Below are positions 54,215 through 64,000 of a DNA stretch of 64,000 nucleotides, one piece after another; position 1 is the first letter of the stretch; each line of letters opens with the position of its first letter. The stretch covers positions 62,001-126,000 of the forward strand of contig NZ_SMKV01000015.1 of NCBI RefSeq assembly GCF_004348445.1, given 5' to 3'. A program made the translations under genes and the position numbers. The DNA comes from Saccharopolyspora aridisoli. GTDB lineage: Bacteria > Actinomycetota > Actinomycetes > Mycobacteriales > Pseudonocardiaceae. The notes under the pieces were generated by a model. It was not told the DNA's origin. It ran no database searches and worked only from the letters and a program-made list of their open reading frames with translations.

Positions 54215-55687
54215 ATGAGCTCTGTCCCGGTCGTTCTGGGTGTCGATCTCGGCACCACTGCCACCAAGGTCGTCGCCGCAGGCACCGATGCGCGGGTGCT
54301 GCACACCACCGAGCGCGGCTATCCGCTGCGCACCGACGAGTCGGGTGAGGCCACCCAGGACGCGTCGGAGGTGCTGCGGGCCGCGGTCGAGGCGCTTTCC
54401 GACTGCGTGATGTGGGCCCGGGAGCAGGGGCACGAGGTCGCCGGGCTGTCGTTCAGCAGCGCGATGCACACCCTTGTCGGGTTGGACTCCCGAGGCGTAC
54501 CCGCCACGCGCGCGTTCAACTGGGCTGACACGCGGGCCGCCGACGTCGCCGCGCGGCTGCGCGCCGAGCCGGAGACGTCCTCGGCGCTGCACCGGGCGAC
54601 CGGAACACCCGTGCACACCCAGTCGGTCATGGTGAAGCTGGCCTGGCTGACCTCGGCCGGAGCCGACATCGGCGAGGTCGAACGCTGGTGCGCGCTCAAG
54701 GACTTCGTGGTCACCGCCTTCACCGGCGAGTTCGTCACCGAGCACTCGCTGAGCTCCGGCAGCGGTCTGCAGGACATGCACTCGCTGACCTGGCACGAAC
54801 CAGCGCTGGAGGTCGCGGGCATCCGCGCCGAGCAGCTGCCGGAACTCCGCGAGCCGACCGCCTCGGTCCCGCTCGCGCCGCAGGTCGCCGAGGCCGTCGG
54901 GCTCCCGGCCGGTTTACCGGTCGTGCTCGGCGGCGGTGACGGGCCACTGGCCAACCTCGGCGTGGGCGCGGTGACCCCCGGTGTGGCGGCGCTGTCGCTG
55001 GGCACCAGCGGCGCTCTGCGGGTGACCCGGGACAAGCCGGGCGTGGACGACCGCTGCCGCACCTTCAGCTACGCGATCGCCGACGGCTTGTGGGTGATCG
55101 GTGGCGCGGTGAGCAATGGCGGCGTTGCCGGCCAGTGGGCCGCGGAGGCGTTCGGCGTGGACGTCGCGGACCTGCTCGAGGAGGCCGCCCAGGTCTCGGC
55201 CGGGGCCGACGGCCTGATGGCCTTGCCGTACCTGCTCGGCGAGCGCGCACCCTGGTGGGAACCGGGCCTGACCGGCGCTTTCCTCGGCCTGCGCCGCTCG
55301 CACGGCCGCGCCGAGATGACCCGCGCCATCATCGAGGGTGTCGCCCAGCAGCTCGCCCTGGTCCGCGACGCGGTCACCGAATCCGGCGCGGAGGTCCGAG
55401 CGGTGCGCGCCACCGGCGGAGGTTTCCGCAGCCGCATCTGGGCCGAGACCATCGCCTCCGCCCTGAACATGGACCTCGACCTCGCCGAAGGCAGCGGAGG
55501 GTCGGGTCTGGGAGCGGTCCTGCTGGCCTGGCGAGCCCTGGGCGAGATCGACTCCCTGGCCCACGCCGCGGAACTGGTCGCCGTCGAATCCGAGATCGCC
55601 CCGGATCCGGCCGCAGCGGACCTCCTGGCCCGCCGCCGACCCCTCATCGACCAACTCCACCACACCCTCCGCGACCTGCCCCTCTGA
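54215..55687 (+). CDS. FGGY-family sugar kinase (gluconokinase-like)
   Basis: 490 aa. 'VVLGVDLGTTATKVVAAGTDARV' is the phosphate loop of the actin-like ATPase fold. 'FSSAMHTLVGLDSRGVPATRAFNWADTRAA' is characteristic of the gluconokinase group of FGGY kinases. 'GGGDGPLANLGVGAV', 'LGTSGALRV' and 'VRATGGGFRSRIWAETIASAL' complete the fold. It phosphorylates gluconate or a related polyol or sugar acid in the cytosol. It stands alone, so the substrate is inferred from motifs only. Confidence 0.88.
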   Translation: MSSVPVVLGVDLGTTATKVVAAGTDARVLHTTERGYPLRTDESGEATQDASEVLRAAVEALSDCVMWAREQGHEVAGLSFSSAMHTLVGLDSRGVPATRAFNWADTRAADVAARLRAEPETSSALHRATGTPVHTQSVMVKLAWLTSAGADIGEVERWCALKDFVVTAFTGEFVTEHSLSSGSGLQDMHSLTWHEPALEVAGIRAEQLPELREPTASVPLAPQVAEAVGLPAGLPVVLGGGDGPLANLGVGAVTPGVAALSLGTSGALRVTRDKPGVDDRCRTFSYAIADGLWVIGGAVSNGGVAGQWAAEAFGVDVADLLEEAAQVSAGADGLMALPYLLGERAPWWEPGLTGAFLGLRRSHGRAEMTRAIIEGVAQQLALVRDAVTESGAEVRAVRATGGGFRSRIWAETIASALNMDLDLAEGSGGSGLGAVLLAWRALGEIDSLAHAAELVAVESEIAPDPAAADLLARRRPLIDQLHHTLRDLPL

Positions 55688-55721: not shown

Positions 55722-57863
55722 TCAGCCTCGGGAGTGGCGGCCCGAGGGGGTCGGGTCGACGTAGTGGGAGGACTCCTCCTCGGGGTCCGGTTTGGCGTGG
55801 CTGCCGGTGGGCTGGTTGACCGCGGAACGGGTGTGGGACTCGCCCTGCTCCGGCTCGGCCCGGCGCCGGCGCCCCGTGCTGGTGCCCACCTCGCGGAGCG
55901 CTCGGCGCCCGGTCGGGTGGTCGCTCTGCTGCAGGAACTGGGTGGCCGGGGTCTTCCCGGGGGTGTGCGTGCCGCGTGCCGGGGTCGACCACTCGCCCTG
56001 GCGGGCCGGGGCAGCGGCCGGCTCCTGGCGGGCTCGTTCCGCCTCGGCAGCCTGGCGAGCCTGCTCAGCCTCCGCGGCGCGCCTGGCCTGCTCAGCCTCG
56101 GCGGCCTGGCGGGCTCGTTCCGCCTCCGCGGCCTGGCGAGCCTGCTCAGCCTCCGCGGCGCGCCTGGCCTGCTCAGCCTCGGCCGCTTGGCGGGCTCGTT
56201 CCGCCTCCGCGGCCTGGCGAGCCTGCTCAGCCTCCGCGGCGCGCCTGGCCTGCTCAGCCTCGGCCGCTTGGCGGGCCTGCTCAGCTTGGGCCTGGGCCTG
56301 GGCCTGGGCCTGGGCTTGGGCCTGGGCTTGGGCTTGGGCTTGGGCCTGGGCGGCACGGGCTTGTTGCTGGGCTTGGGCCTGGGCGGCCTGCTGCGGATTC
56401 CCCTGGTTCTGGATCTGGTGCAGGATCACGCGTTCCGCGCTGCGCAAGACGCAGCGGACGGCATCGCGGTGAGCGCGGTCGAGCATCGGGTTGACGGCCT
56501 GCTCGCGCCAGCGGGAGAGCGTGGCGGTGGCCTCGTCGGCGACCTCGGTGATCGCCGCCGTCTCGTCCAGGCCGAGCCGTGCGTGCGGTGAGTGCCCGGA
56601 AGCGCCGAGCAGCCGCTTGGCCTCGGCTTGCAACGGGCGGGCGAACCGGATCTGCCCGGAGTCCAACGCTGACAGGGTGCGCAGCTCGTTCCACTCGTGG
56701 GCGTTGGTGAGGACCCGCTCGAACTCGCCGAGCAGCTGCTGCACTCCGGGGCGCGGGTTGGCGCGGAGCACCATGTCCACCGCCAGCAGCGCGGACCGGG
56801 CGCGCAGCGCGTCCTGGCGCTCCACGAACTGCGAGCGCAGCGTCTCCTGCAGGGTCGCGAGCCCACTGGTCTCCAGCAGCTCCTGCTGCAGCTGCTCGGC
56901 AGTGCTGACCCCACCGCGCAGCAGGTCCAGCGAGCGCGCGATGCCGTAGTGGCCGTAGCGCTCCAGCAGCCGCTGCCGGATCTCCGACGGCACGGCCTCC
57001 AAGCCCGCCTTGACGAACCGCTCCGCCGACAGCAGCAGCGTGTCCCGGTCGGTGTCGGACAACCGCGCCAGGTAGGCGAGGATCTTGAAGTCGTCCTCGG
57101 TCATCGTCGACGACGCCTGCCCGAGCAGCCCCACGACCGGGATGAAGTGCTGGGCGAACGCGCTCAGCGTCGGGTCGGCGCGGTAGCGATCGGCGATTCG
57201 CCCGGCGGCGGCCAGCGCGTCGGTGCCGCCGTCGCCGGTCTCGTCGGCGCGGGAGAACGCGACGATGGTGTTGATCGGCACGCAGCGCGCGGTCTGCAGC
57301 TCGTTGACCGACTGCAGGAACTGCAGGTCGGTCTGGCGCGGGTAGCGGGTCAGGTACAGCACCGCGTCGGACTCGGAGAGGATCTGCGCGAGCGCGGAGC
57401 GGCCGGTCTCCTGCACGGCCGCGGAGGCCACGCCGGGCGTCTCGATCAGCGTGATGGCTTGCAGGCCCGGTGTCGGGGATTCGATGACCAGCCGGGAGAC
57501 CTCGTCCGGACGCCAGTGCTGCAGGTCCCTGATCGTCGCCGAGTCCAATGTGGACACCGGAACGTTCTGCACCGCGCCGTGCGGGGTGTGCACCAGGATC
57601 TTCGGTTCCGGTCCGTACTGGTAGAACGTCGTGACCTGGGTGCGCTCCTCGGCGTCGGTGGGCGCCAGGTCGGTCCCGATCAACGCGTTGATCAGCGTCG
57701 ACTTGCCCGACTTCACCCGCCCGCTGACCGCGATCCGCAGGGGTTGGTCGAGCCGTTCCAGGCGGTCGCGCAGCCACGTGGACGTGCGCGGATCGTCGCG
57801 GTAGAACGTCATCGTCCGCATCAGCAGGCCCTTGGCCCGCTCCAGCAGTGCTTCGGTGCTCAT
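55722..57863 (-). CDS. Dynamin-like GTPase with repetitive coiled-coil tail (IniC-like)
   Basis: 713 aa. GTPase domain: P-loop GRVKSGKS (48-55), switch Thr in 'TQVTTF', G3 as ETPGV (141-145, Glu for the usual Asp), and FSRADE (203-208) as a G4-like motif. A helical stalk runs to about residue 525 without membrane segments, as in mycobacterial IniC. Then come an Ala-Gln dipeptide tract and three copies of a 27-residue 'EQARRAAEA'-based coiled coil, ending in a disordered tail (about 610-713). The ATG overlaps the upstream dynamin gene by 4 nt. The pair probably forms a hetero-oligomer remodelling or repairing membrane. Confidence 0.88.
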   Translation of the reverse strand: MSTEALLERAKGLLMRTMTFYRDDPRTSTWLRDRLERLDQPLRIAVSGRVKSGKSTLINALIGTDLAPTDAEERTQVTTFYQYGPEPKILVHTPHGAVQNVPVSTLDSATIRDLQHWRPDEVSRLVIESPTPGLQAITLIETPGVASAAVQETGRSALAQILSESDAVLYLTRYPRQTDLQFLQSVNELQTARCVPINTIVAFSRADETGDGGTDALAAAGRIADRYRADPTLSAFAQHFIPVVGLLGQASSTMTEDDFKILAYLARLSDTDRDTLLLSAERFVKAGLEAVPSEIRQRLLERYGHYGIARSLDLLRGGVSTAEQLQQELLETSGLATLQETLRSQFVERQDALRARSALLAVDMVLRANPRPGVQQLLGEFERVLTNAHEWNELRTLSALDSGQIRFARPLQAEAKRLLGASGHSPHARLGLDETAAITEVADEATATLSRWREQAVNPMLDRAHRDAVRCVLRSAERVILHQIQNQGNPQQAAQAQAQQQARAAQAQAQAQAQAQAQAQAQAQAQAEQARQAAEAEQARRAAEAEQARQAAEAERARQAAEAEQARRAAEAEQARQAAEAERARQAAEAEQARRAAEAEQARQAAEAERARQEPAAAPARQGEWSTPARGTHTPGKTPATQFLQQSDHPTGRRALREVGTSTGRRRRAEPEQGESHTRSAVNQPTGSHAKPDPEEESSHYVDPTPSGRHSRG
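55998..56280 (-). repeat. 81-bp tandem repeats encoding a coiled coil
   Basis: Three near-identical 81-bp units (27 residues, each three 9-mers of EQARRAAEA, EQARQAAEA and ERARQAAEA type), plus partial copies at the ends. They encode a highly charged helical rod in the tail of the IniC-like GTPase. Copy number is likely variable. Confidence 0.75.
56286..56351 (-). repeat. Hexanucleotide repeat (Ala-Gln tract)
   Basis: About 11 copies of ttgggc/ctgggc encode (Ala-Gln)n between the GTPase stalk and the coiled-coil repeats. Slippage would change length by 6 bp without a frameshift. Confidence 0.8.
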
Positions 57864-59680
57864 GCGGCGGTGATCCGGTTCTGCGTGAGCTGGGTGACCC
57901 GCCGGCGAAGCACGGTGATCTCCTCGAGCTTCTGCTTGATCTCCCGCGCCCGCTGGTCGCGGTCCACCGCGCTGCGCTCCGCGGAGCGCTTGATCGCCTG
58001 GATGGACTGGCTGATCTCCATCTGGGCGTCCTCGGTGATCCGGGTGAAGTGCTTGTGCAGCGCCTTGTGGATCGCGCGGATGGTGTCCTTCGAGTCCTTG
58101 TTGACCTGGAAGATCACCTGCTCGATGTGCCGCTGCACGTTGCTCTTGGCCTCGGTCTGGCGGCGGCGCAGCCGCATGTCCTTCTCTTCCTTGAGGCTCT
58201 TGGTGCCCAGCAGCACACCGGCCGAGATCGACACGACGTTCATCAGCGGCAGCCCGGCCATCGTGGTGATCAGGCCGAACATCAGCACGCCGCCGTAGGA
58301 GCCGCGCAGACCGGTGAGGACCTGGTCGAAGTTCTTGTAGTCGGCGCCGGTCGGCAGCTTCGGGCCGGGGACATCGTCGAGCGGGTCCGGCGCCAGCACC
58401 GGGTTCAGCTCGGGCGGGCGGCTCAGCTGCTGCGGCGGCAGCTGCTCGGCGACCATCTCGGCGAGGCGCTGCTGGCGCTGCTCCAGCCAGCCGAAGGTCT
58501 CGCTGATCGCATCGGTGAGCCGGGCCTGCATCCACCGGATGAAGTCGTCCCAGATCATCAGCGGGTCTGCGACCTCGAAGATCTCGTTGACCTCGTGCAG
58601 CACCGCCCAGGTGCGCTCCCGGAAGTCGTACTCGATGTCGGTGAACAGCTCGGAGATGCCGTCGTTGAGCGTCTTCTGCCAGTGCTGCGAGATGCGGCGC
58701 AGGTCCTCGGCCCGGCGCTGCGCGGTCTCCAGCTCGACCAGCGTTTCGGCGGCGGTGCGCGGGTTCTGCGCGGCGAGCTCCGCGCGCAGCGAGTCGTTGA
58801 TCTGGGTCAGCGCCTCGGATACGTTGTGCGCCACCAGCCTTCGCGTGAACTGCTCGTGCTGGCCCGCGAGTTCGGTCTGCAGGAACTCCAGCAGCTGCGG
58901 GAATCCCGACTCCGCGTTGAGGTTGGTGTTGCGCGACTGCATGGCGCGCATCCGGATGTCGGCCGAGACCGGGAACAGCTTCGCCGAGACGCCCGCGTTG
59001 CTCAGGTGCTTCCGGTTGACCTCCAGGACCTTCCGCCAGTGCGGGGTCCGGTCGATCTTGGGCATCACGAGCGCGATGTTCGGGCACAGCGCGGTGGCCT
59101 GCTTGAGGAACGCGAGCTCGTTGGTGGTCAGTTCCTGTGTCGAATCGGACACCATCAGCAGCGCGTCGGCTTCGGCGACCACGGAGAGTGTCGTGCTGGT
59201 GAGGAAAGATGAGACGCTTCCCACACCGGGGGTGTCCATCAGCGCCAGACCGTTCTGCAGCACCGCTCGTGGGATGCCGATCTCACCTCGGGTCACCGGA
59301 CGGCCGTTCGCGACGGCGCGTTCCATGTGCTCTTGGACCTGGTCGATCGGCACCGGTGTGCGGTCGAGCGCGACCGGTCCGCGCGCGGGTTCCTGCTCGA
59401 TCAGCAGCGCGGTGGGCTCGTCGGCGTAGCGCACCAGTGTCGGCACGGTCGTGGTGACGTCGTCACCTGACGGGCACACGGGCGCGTTCACGATGGCGTT
59501 GACCAGCGCGGACTTTCCCTGCTTCGACTCTCCGACGACCAGCACGAGCTGGGTCGGGTCGAGGACTCTTGTTCTGATTTGGCGCAGGCGGCCATGCAGA
59601 TCGGCGCGCTGCTGCTCGGCGCACTCGGCAGTAGCGCGATCGATCAGTTCCACCAACGCTGTCTCGATCACGGCGGCCAT
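57860..59680 (-). CDS. Dynamin-like GTPase with membrane hairpin (IniA-like)
   Basis: 606 aa. P-loop GESKQGKS (50-57), switch Thr77-79 (VTTT), G3 DTPGVG (149-154), G4 as PKID (207-210). A helical stalk (about 270-445) leads to a hydrophobic hairpin at 464-492 (MFGLITTMAGLPLMNVVSISAG), then a C-terminal helix bundle. This organisation matches mycobacterial IniA, a bacterial dynamin that binds and fuses membranes. It lies immediately upstream of and overlaps the second GTPase gene. A terminator separates it from the IniB-like gene, so a promoter probably lies at 59681-59786. Confidence 0.9.
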   Translation of the reverse strand: MAAVIETALVELIDRATAECAEQQRADLHGRLRQIRTRVLDPTQLVLVVGESKQGKSALVNAIVNAPVCPSGDDVTTTVPTLVRYADEPTALLIEQEPARGPVALDRTPVPIDQVQEHMERAVANGRPVTRGEIGIPRAVLQNGLALMDTPGVGSVSSFLTSTTLSVVAEADALLMVSDSTQELTTNELAFLKQATALCPNIALVMPKIDRTPHWRKVLEVNRKHLSNAGVSAKLFPVSADIRMRAMQSRNTNLNAESGFPQLLEFLQTELAGQHEQFTRRLVAHNVSEALTQINDSLRAELAAQNPRTAAETLVELETAQRRAEDLRRISQHWQKTLNDGISELFTDIEYDFRERTWAVLHEVNEIFEVADPLMIWDDFIRWMQARLTDAISETFGWLEQRQQRLAEMVAEQLPPQQLSRPPELNPVLAPDPLDDVPGPKLPTGADYKNFDQVLTGLRGSYGGVLMFGLITTMAGLPLMNVVSISAGVLLGTKSLKEEKDMRLRRRQTEAKSNVQRHIEQVIFQVNKDSKDTIRAIHKALHKHFTRITEDAQMEISQSIQAIKRSAERSAVDRDQRAREIKQKLEEITVLRRRVTQLTQNRITAA

Positions 59681-59786
59681 TGTGTCGTGCCGCGGCGGTT
59701 AGAGAAACCCAATCGGTTGAACTCACATCGCTAACGCGCACGCGCCGTGTTGGTGAGGCACGCGGAATTTACGGAATGTGAAAAAT

Positions 59787-59817
59787 GCCGGGATCCACTC
59801 AGGGAGCGGATCCCGGC
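59787..59817 (-). terminator. Intrinsic terminator between iniB-like and dynamin genes
   Basis: Perfect 10-bp stem gccgggatcc / ggatcccggc with an 11-nt loop. On the minus strand it is followed by ATTTTTC. It lies 29 bp after the IniB-like stop. Confidence 0.85.
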
Positions 59818-59845
59818 ACCTTCAAAGCTCAGTCGCGGAGAGCGA

Positions 59846-61681
59846 TCAGAGCAGGCCGTCCAGCGGCAGCGCGTCCGTGGCGGTGTTGGTCAGGTCCTCC
59901 ACCGGCTCGCCGACGATCGGACCCGCGACCGGCAGGTCGCTCGGTGCCGGCAGGTGCGAGACCACGTCGCCGACCGGGGCCAGCGGAGCGGCGTCCAGCG
60001 GCAGCGCCGAGGTGACGTCCTCGACCGGCAGCGCGTCGGTGGGCAGCGCGGAGGTCAGGTCGTCGACCGGCAGCGCGGAGACGTCGCCACCGGCAACGGT
60101 GTCGGTCACGGAGCTGGCGAGGTCGCCGGCGACCGGGACGTTGGCAACGGCGTCGGTGACCGTGCCGGTGACGTCGCCGATGGCCTCCGGGCCGACCGGG
60201 ACGTTGTTGACCAGGCTGCCGCTAACGGCGGCACCGCCGGCCACGTCGCCCACGACCGGGACGTTGCTCAGCGCGCCGGTGGCGGTGTCGGCGACCTCGC
60301 CGGCGACCGGAACGTTGGAGACGGCACCGGTGACGTCACCCGAGGTCACGTCGCCCAGGGCGTCGCCCACGACCGGCACGTTCGCGCCGGCGTCGGTCAG
60401 CGTGCCGGCCACACCGGTCACGTCGCCCGAGGTCACGTCGCCGACGACGTCACCCACGACCGGCACGGAGCCGACGGTGCTGGTGGCGGTGGAGGCGATG
60501 TCGCCCACGACCGGGACGCCGGCCACGACGCCCAGCGGGCCGCTCTCGGCGGCGCCCGTGACGGAACCGGCCAGGTCGCCCACGACCGGGACACCAGCGG
60601 CAGCGCCGGCCAGGTCGCCCACGACCGGCAGGCCGGCGGCGTTGTCGCTCAGGTTCCCGGCGATGCCGGTCACGTCGCCCGAGGTGACCGAGCCGACGAC
60701 GTCGCCGACGACCGGGGCCTCGGAAACGGTGGAGGTCAGGTCACCGGCAACGCCGGTGATGTCGCCCGAGGTCACGTTGCCGACGACGTCGCCCACGACG
60801 GGGGCCTCGGAAACGGTGGAGGTCAGGTCACCGGCAACGCCGGTGATGTCGCCCGAGGTCACGTCGCCGACGACGTCGCCCACGACCGGGGCGTCGCCCA
60901 CGACCTGGGTGGCGTTGGCGGCCACGTCGCCCACGACCGGGGCGTTGGTGACCACGTCGGTGACGTTGCCCGAGGCCACGTCGCCGACCACGTTGGTGAC
61001 GTCGCCGTGCACCAGCGAACCGGTGACCGACGCGACGTCCAGCGAGCTGTCGAACATGTGGGTGGCGGTGCTGGTGACCGAACCGACGGTGGAGGACAGG
61101 TCGAGGTTGTCACCGATGTTGACGTCGTTGCCCGACAGGACCTGGTTGCCCGAGAGCACGTCGTGCACGTTGACGACGTTGTGCGAGTCGACGTCGGTGT
61201 GCTCGATGTCGATGTTGGTGTCGCCGTTCTGCGCCGGGGCGGGGGCAGGCATCTGGGCGTCGACGTCGCCGCCGGGGCCGAAGTCGTCAGAGGGGGTGTT
61301 CTGCAGCATGCTGAGTTCTTCCTGCTCGTGTGGATGTGCGGGATGCAGTTCGCTGATTACGACATGCTGGTTGCTCGCGGCGAACTTCTCGACGCTGCTC
61401 GAAAGCGAGCGGTCGTGCGCGTTGACCACCTCGACCGGCGCGTAGTCGAGGACCAGCGACGTGGCTTGAAGCACGTCTGTCGCGCTCATTTCCCCGAGTC
61501 CGACCTGATCCAACGTGGCTTGCGGATCAGCGTCGAAGGCCGACCGTGCGGCCGGATCGCTGACGAGGCGCGTGAGGAACTCGTGCAGCGTCGGTTCCGC
61601 GGACAGGCCGGAGTTGGAGTGCGTCCCGGGGTCGGAGGTGGGGGACTCGGCCTGACCAGAGGGGTGCTGAGGGTTCGCCAT
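59846..61681 (-). CDS. IniB-like repetitive acidic protein
   Basis: 611 aa. The N-terminal domain (about residues 30-85: 'LHEFLTRLVSDPAARSAFDADPQATLDQVGL...DVLQATSLVLDYAPV') matches in spacing the N-terminus of mycobacterial IniB, where a similar short helical domain precedes a low-complexity repeat. Here the remaining 450 residues are built from V-V-G-D, V-T-S-G-D and P-V-V-G-D-V units, predicting a regular beta-solenoid or flexible acidic rod. No Sec signal or lipobox is seen. The ATG follows GGGAGG. Its position next to two IniA/IniC-like dynamins supports the identification. Confidence 0.75.
   Translation of the reverse strand: MANPQHPSGQAESPTSDPGTHSNSGLSAEPTLHEFLTRLVSDPAARSAFDADPQATLDQVGLGEMSATDVLQATSLVLDYAPVEVVNAHDRSLSSSVEKFAASNQHVVISELHPAHPHEQEELSMLQNTPSDDFGPGGDVDAQMPAPAPAQNGDTNIDIEHTDVDSHNVVNVHDVLSGNQVLSGNDVNIGDNLDLSSTVGSVTSTATHMFDSSLDVASVTGSLVHGDVTNVVGDVASGNVTDVVTNAPVVGDVAANATQVVGDAPVVGDVVGDVTSGDITGVAGDLTSTVSEAPVVGDVVGNVTSGDITGVAGDLTSTVSEAPVVGDVVGSVTSGDVTGIAGNLSDNAAGLPVVGDLAGAAAGVPVVGDLAGSVTGAAESGPLGVVAGVPVVGDIASTATSTVGSVPVVGDVVGDVTSGDVTGVAGTLTDAGANVPVVGDALGDVTSGDVTGAVSNVPVAGEVADTATGALSNVPVVGDVAGGAAVSGSLVNNVPVGPEAIGDVTGTVTDAVANVPVAGDLASSVTDTVAGGDVSALPVDDLTSALPTDALPVEDVTSALPLDAAPLAPVGDVVSHLPAPSDLPVAGPIVGEPVEDLTNTATDALPLDGLL
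60630..60890 (-). repeat. 87-bp tandem repeats in the iniB-like gene
   Basis: Three units; the segments 60717-60776 and 60804-60863 are identical, offset by exactly 87 bp. They encode a 29-residue unit with V-V-G-D-V-V-G-D-V-T-S-G-D. More diverged units continue to about 60130. Confidence 0.8.
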
Positions 61682-61980
61682 CGTCGGACCTCCCGATGCT
61701 CAGCGGTACTCGGCTAGGTGGACCGAGTGAGGTCGTGCCGTTCCCTCACTCCTGTGTTGATCACAGTAGGGGCGGCGAACCCCCCAGCCATCGGGTACGA
61801 CTCCTAGTCATCGAGATCTCTATTAGGGGATTGATTAGGTAGGCCGTTGGGGGGTGGCTAGGGGAGTCCCGAACCGCTCCGTAATCGAATGCCGCTAAAT
61901 TGTGGACACCCCGCCCGCGCGCAAGACCCTCGATCGGGGAACCTGGCAGGACACGCGAGTCGGTGACACGAAGGGATTGC
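61682..61980. promoter_or_regulatory. Divergent control region, iniB-like / Hsp70-like
   Basis: 299 bp shared by two divergent genes, with an AT-rich stretch (61795-61842) in otherwise GC-rich DNA. It contains two attagg direct repeats 12 bp apart (61822 and 61834) and an imperfect dyad CTCCTA (61801) / TAGGGG (61824). These are candidate binding sites for the STAND/LuxR-type regulator encoded at 63458 (inference). Confidence 0.5.
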
Positions 61981-63336
61981 ATGCCTTACGTCCTGGGCGT
62001 TCACCTGGGCGCGACGGTGACGACCGCCGCAACGGCCAGGCGCGACGGTGGCCGCTGGACGGCGACCGTTCCCGTGCCCTTGGCGACCAACGGCCCGGTG
62101 GTGCCGACGGTGCTGTGCAAGGTCCAGGACGGATCTTTCGTGGCCGGGGAGGCCGCCGCCCGCCAGGAGATCAGCCACCACGAGTGGGTCGCGCGCGGCT
62201 TCACCAGCAGGCTCGGCGACGACCTGCCGCTGGTGGTCGGCAGCGAGTTCGTCCCGGCGCAGCGCCTGGTCGCCGCGATGATCGAGTGGGTCTCCGACGT
62301 GGTCACCCAGCGGCAGGGGTACCCGCCCGAGCACATCGCCGTGGCCCACAGCTCCAGCTGGGGCCCGCACCGGGTGCACCTGGTGCAGCAGGCGCTGTCC
62401 CAGCTCGGGATCACCGAGGTCACCTTGGTCCCCGAGCCGATCGCCGTCGCCCTCGACTACGCGAGCAAGCAGCGAGTGCAGGAACAGCATCCGCTCGTGG
62501 TCGCCAACGTCGGCGGCAGCGGCTTCGACGCCACCGTGCTGCGCCGCCGCCACCCCTCCTTCGAGGTCGTCGGCTCGCCGTTGAGCACTGAACACCCCTC
62601 GGGGCAAGACCTCGACGACGCGCTGTTCGAGCTGATCGGCGAGCAGTTCCCGGCGCAGATCGGCGAGCTCGACACCTCCGACGTCAACCACCGGGCGGCG
62701 CTGGCCAAGCTGCGCGGCGAGTGCGTGCGGGCCAGGGAGGCGCTGTCGCACCAGGCCGGTGTGTCGATGTGGGTCGACCTGCCCGGCGTGCGGACCGAGT
62801 TCGGCATCTCCCGCGCCCGCTACGAGCAGCTGGCGCGCCCGCACCTGGAGCGGGTGCCCGAGCTGATCTCGCAGGCCGTGCAGTCGGCGTCGTTGCGCCC
62901 GGACGACGTCGAGACGGTGGTGCTGGCGGGCGGGATCGCGCGCACCCCGATGCTCAAACAACTGGTCTCCGAGCGGTTGCAGACCCCGCCGCTGGTCGAC
63001 GTGGCCCCCGAGCTCACCGCCGCCAGCGGTGCCGCGCTGGCCGCGCAGCAGGTGCTGTCCACCAGCACCGACCGCGGTTCGATCGCCGAGACCAGCGTGC
63101 TGATGCGCGTTGACGGCTTCGACACCGACGACGACGTCGACAACGAGCCCGAACCCGTCGAACGCCCACCGATCGACGTCGAGCCGATGCCCATCGAGCC
63201 CCCCGACGAAGCGCGGGCGAAACGCATGAAGATCATCAAGCTGGTGGTGGCGGCGCTGCTGATCACCGTGGGCATCGTGATCACCTTCATGACCAAGGAC
63301 CACTCCATCACCGGCGTGATGGACCTCTTCAAGTAG
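61981..63336 (+). CDS. Hsp70-like actin-fold protein with C-terminal membrane anchor
   Basis: 451 aa. It has an Hsp70 nucleotide-binding domain only, with no substrate-binding domain. Phosphate-1 reads GVHLGAT instead of GIDLGTT; phosphate-2 reads ANVGGSGFD instead of (F/Y)DLGGGTFD; the adenosine motif VVLAGGIARTPML is normal. So both metal-coordinating Asp positions are changed (to His and Asn). After an acidic Pro-rich linker (about 375-410) comes a single membrane segment (419-437) with a short outside tail. The ATG follows GAAGGGA. Divergent from the IniB-like gene and 121 bp before the STAND ATPase, suggesting a signalling or scaffold role in the same system. Confidence 0.85.
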   Translation: MPYVLGVHLGATVTTAATARRDGGRWTATVPVPLATNGPVVPTVLCKVQDGSFVAGEAAARQEISHHEWVARGFTSRLGDDLPLVVGSEFVPAQRLVAAMIEWVSDVVTQRQGYPPEHIAVAHSSSWGPHRVHLVQQALSQLGITEVTLVPEPIAVALDYASKQRVQEQHPLVVANVGGSGFDATVLRRRHPSFEVVGSPLSTEHPSGQDLDDALFELIGEQFPAQIGELDTSDVNHRAALAKLRGECVRAREALSHQAGVSMWVDLPGVRTEFGISRARYEQLARPHLERVPELISQAVQSASLRPDDVETVVLAGGIARTPMLKQLVSERLQTPPLVDVAPELTAASGAALAAQQVLSTSTDRGSIAETSVLMRVDGFDTDDDVDNEPEPVERPPIDVEPMPIEPPDEARAKRMKIIKLVVAALLITVGIVITFMTKDHSITGVMDLFK

Positions 63337-63457
63337 CTCGGTGATCGCGATTTCGTTAACGGAACGGCATACCGCGCAACTGGATCCGCACCCACCACCG
63401 TCAGCCAACTGATCAAGACCGCTAGACCCAGGTGACCGGACGACAAGGAAGGCAGGC

Positions 63458-64000
63458 GTGAATCACCCGACGACATCCCGCCCCGCCCTGGTCCCGGACG
63501 GGCACGCGGCCGGGTTGCGGTCGGCCATCGAGGCCTCCCCGGGCTCGCCGATCGTGGCCGGCATCCAGGGCGCAGGTGGGTTCGGCAAGACCACGCTGCT
63601 CGAGGCCATCGCCGCCGCCTACCGCGAGGCGGACGTGCCGGTGCTCGGTGTCCAGGAGCTCGACCGCGCCGAGCACGGTGCGCTGCTGGTCGACGACGCG
63701 CACCGGCTCGACGACGAACTGCTGCTGCGGCTCAGCGAGATCGCCCGCCGCCCGGGGACCCGACTGCTGGTCGCCTACCGGCCCGGCCCGCGCAGCGCAG
63801 CGCTCGGCGAGCTGATCGGCGAACTCGGCGCTCCCGTGCTGCTCGCTGCCCTCGGGCTGGACGAGATCGCCGAGCGGGCCGAGGGCAGCGCGCTGGACTG
63901 GGTCGGTTGGGTGCAGACCCAGACCGGCGGTGTCCCGCGCTACGTCTCCCGGCTGCTGGCCGAGGCCGTGCCCGGACGCGCCGAGCTGCCCGCCCGCGCG
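63458..64000 (+). CDS. STAND P-loop ATPase, possible IniR/MalT-like regulator (partial)
   Basis: First 181 codons; the gene runs off the window. The GTG start has AAGGAAGG 5 nt upstream. Walker A is GAGGFGKTT (residues 38-46), and Walker B ALLVDDAH (76-83) leads into 'LLVAYRPGP', as in MalT/LuxR-type STAND ATPases. The early 'LVPDGHAAGLRSAIEASPGSPIVAGIQGAG' resembles the N-terminus of mycobacterial IniR, the STAND activator of iniBAC, but that rests on recall. Whether a LuxR helix-turn-helix follows cannot be seen. It probably regulates the neighbouring genes. Confidence 0.7.
   Translation, partial: MNHPTTSRPALVPDGHAAGLRSAIEASPGSPIVAGIQGAGGFGKTTLLEAIAAAYREADVPVLGVQELDRAEHGALLVDDAHRLDDELLLRLSEIARRPGTRLLVAYRPGPRSAALGELIGELGAPVLLAALGLDEIAERAEGSALDWVGWVQTQTGGVPRYVSRLLAEAVPGRAELPARA

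Follow-up and report, generated by a model that had tools for sequence, protein, structure and literature searches.

An ini-type dynamin locus of Saccharopolyspora with a degenerate, putatively membrane-anchored Hsp70-like protein encoded beside an IniR-like regulator

In mycobacteria, drugs that act on the cell wall cause strong and specific induction of the iniBAC operon, which comprises iniB and the genes for the dynamin-like proteins IniA and IniC. The specific activator of the operon, IniR, has a MalT-like build, responds to trehalose as a cue and, by chromatin immunoprecipitation sequencing (ChIP-seq) in Mycobacterium tuberculosis, binds directly upstream of iniB (PMC5760070). IniA cuts membranes with GTP, producing fission in vitro (PMC6715688). 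Boot et al. call in their discussion for IniR binding partners, and they mention in one sentence an Hsp70-like gene beside iniR in M. smegmatis, of which the accessible text holds no analysis that we saw (PMC5760070). In cyanobacteria, according to a 2018 review, dynamins of a 'chaperone group' have a gene for a DnaK-domain protein downstream, and a link between the two activities has been proposed (PMC5827413). Beyond these two papers, we found no treatment of an Hsp70–dynamin link in the accessible part of the open-licence literature. Here we analyze a locus at the end of a 64,000-nucleotide stretch of the Saccharopolyspora aridisoli genome (the window), in which an Hsp70-like gene adjoins an ini-type operon and an IniR-like regulator gene. 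On balance, we consider it probable, without great confidence, that this is an ini-type locus whose Hsp70-like core member serves as a membrane scaffold and is produced along with IniR.

All five genes that a sequence-only reading had proposed for this region were confirmed, with iniC, iniA and iniB on the reverse strand, divergent from the Hsp70-like and IniR-like genes on the forward strand. The iniA-like gene (57860..59680) encodes a 606-residue dynamin GTPase (Dynamin_N, E 3.1e-18), which phmmer aligns with the solved M. smegmatis IniA (6j72) over nearly its whole length (E 5.1e-106, residues 9–584). It is followed directly by the iniC-like gene (55722..57863; 713 residues; Dynamin_N, E 4.1e-14 in the frame from 57845), whose start overlaps the iniA stop by four nucleotides (ATGA), so the two dynamin genes do overlap as proposed; the IniC-like product matches IniC of loci with IniR over the curated cut-off at E values of about 1e-67 to 1e-72. 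The iniB-like gene (59846..61681) completes the B-A-C order on one strand. Its 611-residue product combines V/G/D/T-rich repeats with an IniB N-terminal domain at residues 31–79, and alignment of that domain with IniB, on which the sequence-only reading had staked its proposal, was obtained above the curated cut-off (NCBIfam NF038175, 55.8 bits against 40). A divergent intergenic gap of roughly 300 base pairs (bp) separates iniB from the Hsp70-like gene (61981..63336), and beyond the latter begins the gene for a LuxR-type, putatively STAND-class regulator (63458..64000 within the window), which continues past the window to G000:C6:127917 and encodes 819 residues. The regulator matches the IniR model NF038181 over residues 22–816, nearly its full length, with 364 bits; since the equivalog cut-off of 750 bits is not reached, IniR-like describes it better than plain IniR. 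Its C-terminus carries a GerE, or LuxR-type helix-turn-helix, domain (54.9 bits, cut-off 23.5), and its N-terminus resembles nSTAND_NTPase5 weakly (20.1 bits, cut-off 34).

The locus thus shares with mycobacterial iniBAC and IniR (PMC5760070, PMC6715688) the IniB N-terminal domain, the IniA/IniC pair, the gene order and an adjoining IniR-type regulator with a LuxR-type DNA-binding end. It differs, as far as those papers were accessible, in that an Hsp70-like gene takes the place between iniB and the regulator, with no iniB* found there in the window, and in its sub-cut-off IniR, long IniB and IniC repeats and short-tailed pseudo-ATPase. Saccharopolyspora are the nearest named relatives, the best IniA segment matching S. 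endophytica at 99%, and we regard the locus as very likely the Saccharopolyspora form of the iniBAC–iniR system, presumably serving in envelope stress. Paired dynamin-like GTPases in one operon are also found in LeoABC (PMC4159319) and Campylobacter DLP1/2 (PMC6104087), and the accessible parts of both papers cite IniA/IniC as such a pair or relative. A word search of the LeoABC text returned no Hsp70, DnaK or GrpE, and in the Campylobacter paper Hsp70 occurs in a reference title only. It seems most improbable that phage defense with dynamins, in the manner of Eleos/Leo, is the main function of our locus: the PADLOC models for LeoBC and LeoA, which have no cut-offs, do match IniA (8.4e-20, residues 21–588) and IniC (3.2e-6), but they are models of dynamins; IniB and the Hsp70-like protein had no match, the IniR-like protein matched CARF models at its DNA-binding end only, and the known relatives answer cell-wall drugs (PMC5760070, in the part available).

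How general is this gene set? We used a sample of 150 genomes of the same order and a second set of 80 loci found by IniA, which overlap in genomes (for example, G112:C50 and L225) and are therefore not independent. With a full-length IniR match defined by our own threshold of at least 300 bits and an IniA match by E at most 1e-70, IniB_NTERM was found over its cut-off in 36, IniR in 36 and IniA in 39 of the 150 genomes; all three co-occur in the same 36, and the three extra genomes (G021, G032 and G044) have IniA only. The stricter IniR equivalog cut-off was passed in 8/150. An Hsp70-like gene is present at 36/36 of the ini loci in the order sample. For 33 of these loci a single fetched stretch includes both hsp70 and iniR, which are adjacent and on the same strand in all but L116 (G052), where hsp70 stands at the iniC end. 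Among the IniA-found loci, 72 of 80 have Hsp70, and the other eight end at a contig edge on the hsp70 side. The Hsp70-like and IniR-like genes are hence conserved beside the dynamins in relatives, as had been predicted. The earlier description of this locus as the Pseudonocardiaceae version of the system stands as regards an ini locus with Hsp70; the Hsp70 link itself is not specific to that family, as loci whose IniR passes the curated cut-off carry it too. Likewise, the view that the link lies outside the described mycobacterial operon must be qualified, since the sentence of Boot et al. on M. smegmatis means that it is not wholly new (PMC5760070, as accessible). In comparison with that case, the gene in our window lies upstream of iniR, it recurs, and its ATPase has decayed. 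Because gene content and order recur across families, the arrangement reflects more than chance. We regard the Hsp70-like protein as very probably a functional part of the ini system.

In a phylum sample of 296 genomes, IniB_NTERM exceeded its cut-off in six, all within the order, with two sub-cut-off matches elsewhere (G391 and G482), and IniA matches below E 1e-150 also occurred in four genomes outside the class. The NCBIfam IniB model missed the IniB-like genes of G282, which our own model found. Some loci depart from the common layout: two Hsp70-like genes, both degenerate, flank iniR in L121–L123; at least two iniB-like genes precede iniA in the Pseudonocardia-type loci L191, L198, L202, L208, L212, L214 and L227; and at L127 (G076:C1:4650000-4669900), where neither a dynamin nor an Hsp70 was matched within the fetched 20 kb, there is a second IniR-like/IniB-like pair.

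The Hsp70-like protein of the window, 451 residues in length, matches the HSP70 profile PF00012 with 102 bits (cut-off 20.6; E 3.2e-29) at profile positions 152–378 of 599, and hydropathy predicts a single membrane segment at residues 418–436, in agreement with the proposal of an Hsp70 nucleotide-binding domain with a C-terminal membrane anchor. Unlike DnaK/Hsp70 chaperones, with which it shares the nucleotide-binding domain by sequence, it has a predicted membrane segment and lacks a recognizable substrate-binding domain, given that the profile match stops at position 378 and only 15 residues follow the membrane segment. Basic residues ahead of that segment suggest that the nucleotide-binding domain would face the cytoplasm. 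The ATPase site was read at six residues after alignment of the Hsp70s to a DnaK-type protein (L119:1780-3624). These are D8, K70, E171, D194, T199 and D201, for which we assume DnaK numbering and roles. In place of D-K-E-D-T-D the window protein has H-T-E-N-G-D, so that four of the six differ and only E171 and D201 are kept, and the degeneracy suspected from the sequence is real. The ratio of nonsynonymous to synonymous substitution rates (dN/dS) against four relatives, 0.20 to 0.42, indicates purifying selection; the gene therefore encodes a pseudo-enzyme and is not a pseudogene.

Decay of this site recurs across ini loci. When any departure from D-K-E-D-T-D is counted as degenerate, 35 of the 36 ini loci in the order sample are degenerate, an observation that is new here. 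The sole intact case is L097, in whose genome IniR is encoded on a different contig; the 9 kb fetched from that contig contain no Hsp70-like gene. The 72 Hsp70s of the IniA-found set divide into 49 degenerate and 23 intact. Degeneracy is seen in, among other groups, Saccharopolyspora/Actinopolyspora, Lentzea/Saccharothrix/Umezawaea and Micromonospora; most intact proteins come from a Pseudonocardia-type arrangement in which hsp70 is divergent from iniB and iniR is convergent beyond iniC, an arrangement that also includes three degenerate loci (L194, L196 and L197). Lentzea fradiae has both states (L179 degenerate, L204 intact). All 42 non-redundant degenerate rows have lost K70, and 36 of them have lost four or five of the six residues. 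On a quick tree of IniA, with 68 rows left from 118 after a length and 85% identity filter, we counted at least five changes of Hsp70 state, a minimum obtained without inferring direction, and the clade of the window is degenerate throughout (30/30). Degenerate proteins are also shorter, with a median of 451 residues (n = 43) against 638.5 for intact ones (n = 18, DnaK excluded), and a membrane segment after residue 330 is predicted in 22/43 against 18/18. In seven intact Hsp70s that were inspected, a Pro/Thr/Ser-rich tail follows the membrane segment. Loss of catalytic residues in several lineages, shortening and a membrane segment in only about half of the degenerate proteins are what one would expect of a gene that is decaying next to the system and contributes nothing to it; we nevertheless consider such a bystander very unlikely, as Hsp70 is found at every locus of both sets that does not end at a contig edge, the frames are open and the gene is under the constraint described above.

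Is the partnership with dynamins wider than the ini system? The six residues are intact in the Hsp70s of IniA-type loci outside the class (L256–L260) and of L262, as well as in L125 and L126, which have IniA without IniB and IniR. We had stated beforehand that Hsp70 beside IniA loci thought to be without IniB would stay intact. This held in L256–L260 and L262, although the prediction as worded is tested by L259 and L260 only, since L256 and L257 each carry a weak IniB-like gene and an IniR-like gene, and L258 an IniR-like match. Weak IniA similarity led to a second locus type, hsp70-dynC-grpE-dynA or a rearrangement of it. Of the 20 such loci fetched (L129–L148), 19 have a GrpE-like gene between their dynamins, L140 having no GrpE-like match; PF01025 was confirmed in three of four GrpE-like candidates tested. 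Nineteen of these 20 loci had been chosen for a nearby Hsp70 match, the twentieth being a dynamin of our own genome (L147), whose dynC-grpE-dynA group has no Hsp70 in the fetched 20 kb. Among second-type dynamin matches not selected for Hsp70, at least 21 of 48, read by hand, have an Hsp70 match within 10 kb. All second-type Hsp70s keep the six ATPase residues. Our GrpE model had no match in the ini loci (39 of the order sample and 80 found by IniA) except in L119, beside its dnaK-type gene. A quick tree separates the ini-type Hsp70s from those of the second type, with starred support, so that the link must be ancient or have more than one origin. An Hsp70 of the same genome at C4 (L128) was considered as a further dynamin neighbor and rejected, because the weak iniC match there (E 6e-12) has no Pfam match. 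That Hsp70 (L128:8788-10602) has an intact site and a membrane segment, and its C-terminus carries a galactose-binding-like domain (PF18559, 2e-27); judged by eye, its neighbors resemble a histidine kinase and a response regulator.

Upstream of iniB, within the region shared with hsp70, lies a candidate IniR box, ATCCCCTAATAG...ACTAGGAGTCGTACCCGATG (61789..61831, reverse strand). A block CCCCTAATAG...ACTAGGAGTCGTACCCGATGG, with substitutions, is common to 12 upstream regions of Saccharopolyspora and Actinopolyspora. Across 62 non-redundant iniB upstream regions, either strand considered, CCCCTAA occurs in 45 (2.25 expected) and CCCGATG in 49 (8.15 expected); expectations come from dinucleotide shuffles, and the highest count that any 7-mer attained in 20 shuffles was 31. 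CCCTAA points towards iniB in 47 regions, and TTAGGG is found in one. CCCTAA is also present upstream of iniB in loci with IniR over the cut-off (L115, L116, L120 and L121). This conservation of CCCCTAA...CCCGATG upstream of iniB is likewise new here. In 60 genomes of the family, a strict pattern of the box gave 17 matches in 15 genomes and none with the reversed control. Twelve matches fall in the interval from iniB to hsp70, while one adjoins iniB alone and one hsp70 alone; another two sit at contig ends (L232 and L247), and one is near neither gene (L235). We infer from the sequences that IniR would read this box. The GGGGA core of the box resembles the MalT box. A wider IniR regulon was rejected: a loose pattern matches one other place in the own genome (C15), the same number as the reversed control, and that place fails the strict pattern. 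This lone match (L230, G000:C15:88820-88848) lies about 240 bp before a gene that resembles a Mur ligase by eye and is probably due to chance.

The repeats noted earlier in the protein tails are genuine by Tandem Repeats Finder. In iniB, repeats of an 87-bp (29-residue) unit span 60649..60896, and the repeat number differs among species. In iniC, 27/81-bp units (56024-56285) and 6/12-bp units together occupy 56024..56384 and encode the A/Q/E/R-rich tail; among the 80 IniA-found loci, IniC tails of such length occur in part of Saccharopolyspora. Both tracts are read on the reverse strand. Residues 31–96 of IniB show weak matches, all below cut-offs, to LigA and to NHLP/Os1348-type families of ribosomally synthesized and post-translationally modified peptides. 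Next to the locus, a gluconokinase-like FGGY sugar kinase gene (54215-55687; 347 bits, below cut-off) is convergent with iniC across a gap of 34 bp.

What could a membrane Hsp70 fold do without its ATPase? We propose the following model. The IniR-like, putatively STAND-class activator would sense envelope stress, signaled in mycobacteria by trehalose, and switch on iniB-iniA-iniC from the CCCCTAA/CCCGATG boxes; the two dynamins would in turn act on the plasma membrane, by remodeling or repairing it, and IniB would be their abundant partner. The Hsp70 nucleotide-binding domain may face the cytoplasm, held in the membrane by its C-terminal segment. Its ancestor was probably an active ATPase that worked with tandem dynamins and bore an extracytoplasmic tail, either folded or rich in Pro and Thr. 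In the lineage of the window, with the ATPase lost and the tail reduced to some 15 residues, it most likely became a nucleotide-insensitive scaffold made together with IniR, which could keep IniR, the dynamins or both at the membrane and free them upon envelope damage. In E. coli, membrane-bound MalK restrains MalT, and the proposed scaffold can be likened to this pair. Both cases would involve a STAND/LuxR activator of MalT type with a membrane partner proposed to hold it (PMC5760070, in the part available); the partner of MalT is a transporter ATPase, while here it would be a pseudo-Hsp70.

That the protein gates IniR, rather than having a role confined to the dynamins, we put forward tentatively and rate as less likely than not. 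Gating is favored in the window lineage because hsp70 stands beside iniR and the ATPase is lost. The Hsp70-like protein might act instead on the dynamins and not on IniR, as a membrane-bound assembly or disassembly factor for IniA/IniC, here a scaffold left over from an ATP-driven version; we take this to be a serious possibility, if less than probable. Dynamin loci without IniR but with an adjoining intact membrane Hsp70 (L125, L126, L259, L260 and L262), the GrpE-bearing loci and the cyanobacterial chaperone group, with its downstream DnaK-domain gene, all speak for it. The cyanobacterial case (PMC5827413) shares an Hsp70-type gene conserved beside a bacterial dynamin, albeit in another phylum, and the accessible text mentions neither IniB nor IniR, a membrane anchor or loss of ATPase residues. 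In the clade of the window, however, hsp70 is encoded with iniR and divergent from the dynamins, and the GrpE-like model is silent on the ini loci of both sets apart from L119. A change of role from dynamin partner to IniR scaffold fits both sets of facts, the IniR-free loci, GrpE-bearing loci and cyanobacterial example favoring the dynamin partner as the ancestral role.

Several observations weigh against the scaffold-with-IniR explanation or parts of it. The regulator scores below the NCBIfam equivalog cut-off for IniR, two IniA-type places (L124 and L261) have no Hsp70 within the fetched stretch, and Hsp70s accompany dynamin pairs without IniR as well as some cyanobacterial dynamins (PMC5827413, as accessible), both of which favor a dynamin partner. 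Regarding the box, 14 of the 62 iniB upstream regions have no CCCTAA in either orientation, and the strict pattern is absent from six genomes in which an ini locus is present (G014, G055, G062, G069, G083 and G144), so that it is specific but not sensitive. Of the 68 loci in the 80-locus set with both genes, hsp70 is apart from iniR in 19 (16 intact, 3 degenerate) and adjacent yet intact in five (L167, L172, L176, L184 and L201), so adjacency alone does not explain decay. The 68 IniA rows of the tree comprise 38 adjacent and degenerate, 3 adjacent and intact, 13 apart and intact, 2 apart and degenerate, and 12 without one of the traits. The notion that Hsp70 decays because it is next to iniR was rejected, since the association, with a Fisher p of 2.7e-8, comes down to just two phylogenetically independent comparisons on the tree.

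More broadly, we consider it quite possible, though somewhat short of probable, that tandem dynamins throughout Actinomycetota generally have a membrane-anchored Hsp70 nucleotide-binding domain as their partner. It would be ATPase-competent with a GrpE-like factor of its own in one locus type, competent and equipped with tails that reach the wall in many ini loci, and turned time and again into a pseudo-ATPase, mostly in loci that encode it together with IniR; the chaperone fold would thereby have given up driving dynamins and come to gate a stress switch. Coupling of chaperones and dynamins in bacteria is suggested by the hsp70-dynamin-grpE-dynamin loci, and the recurrent loss of the ATPase amounts to a natural experiment on the Hsp70 fold without its engine. 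The promoter box offers a testable candidate for the IniR site. As to how IniR is restrained and what aids the dynamins, the conserved, putatively membrane-bound Hsp70-like protein beside IniR is a concrete candidate.

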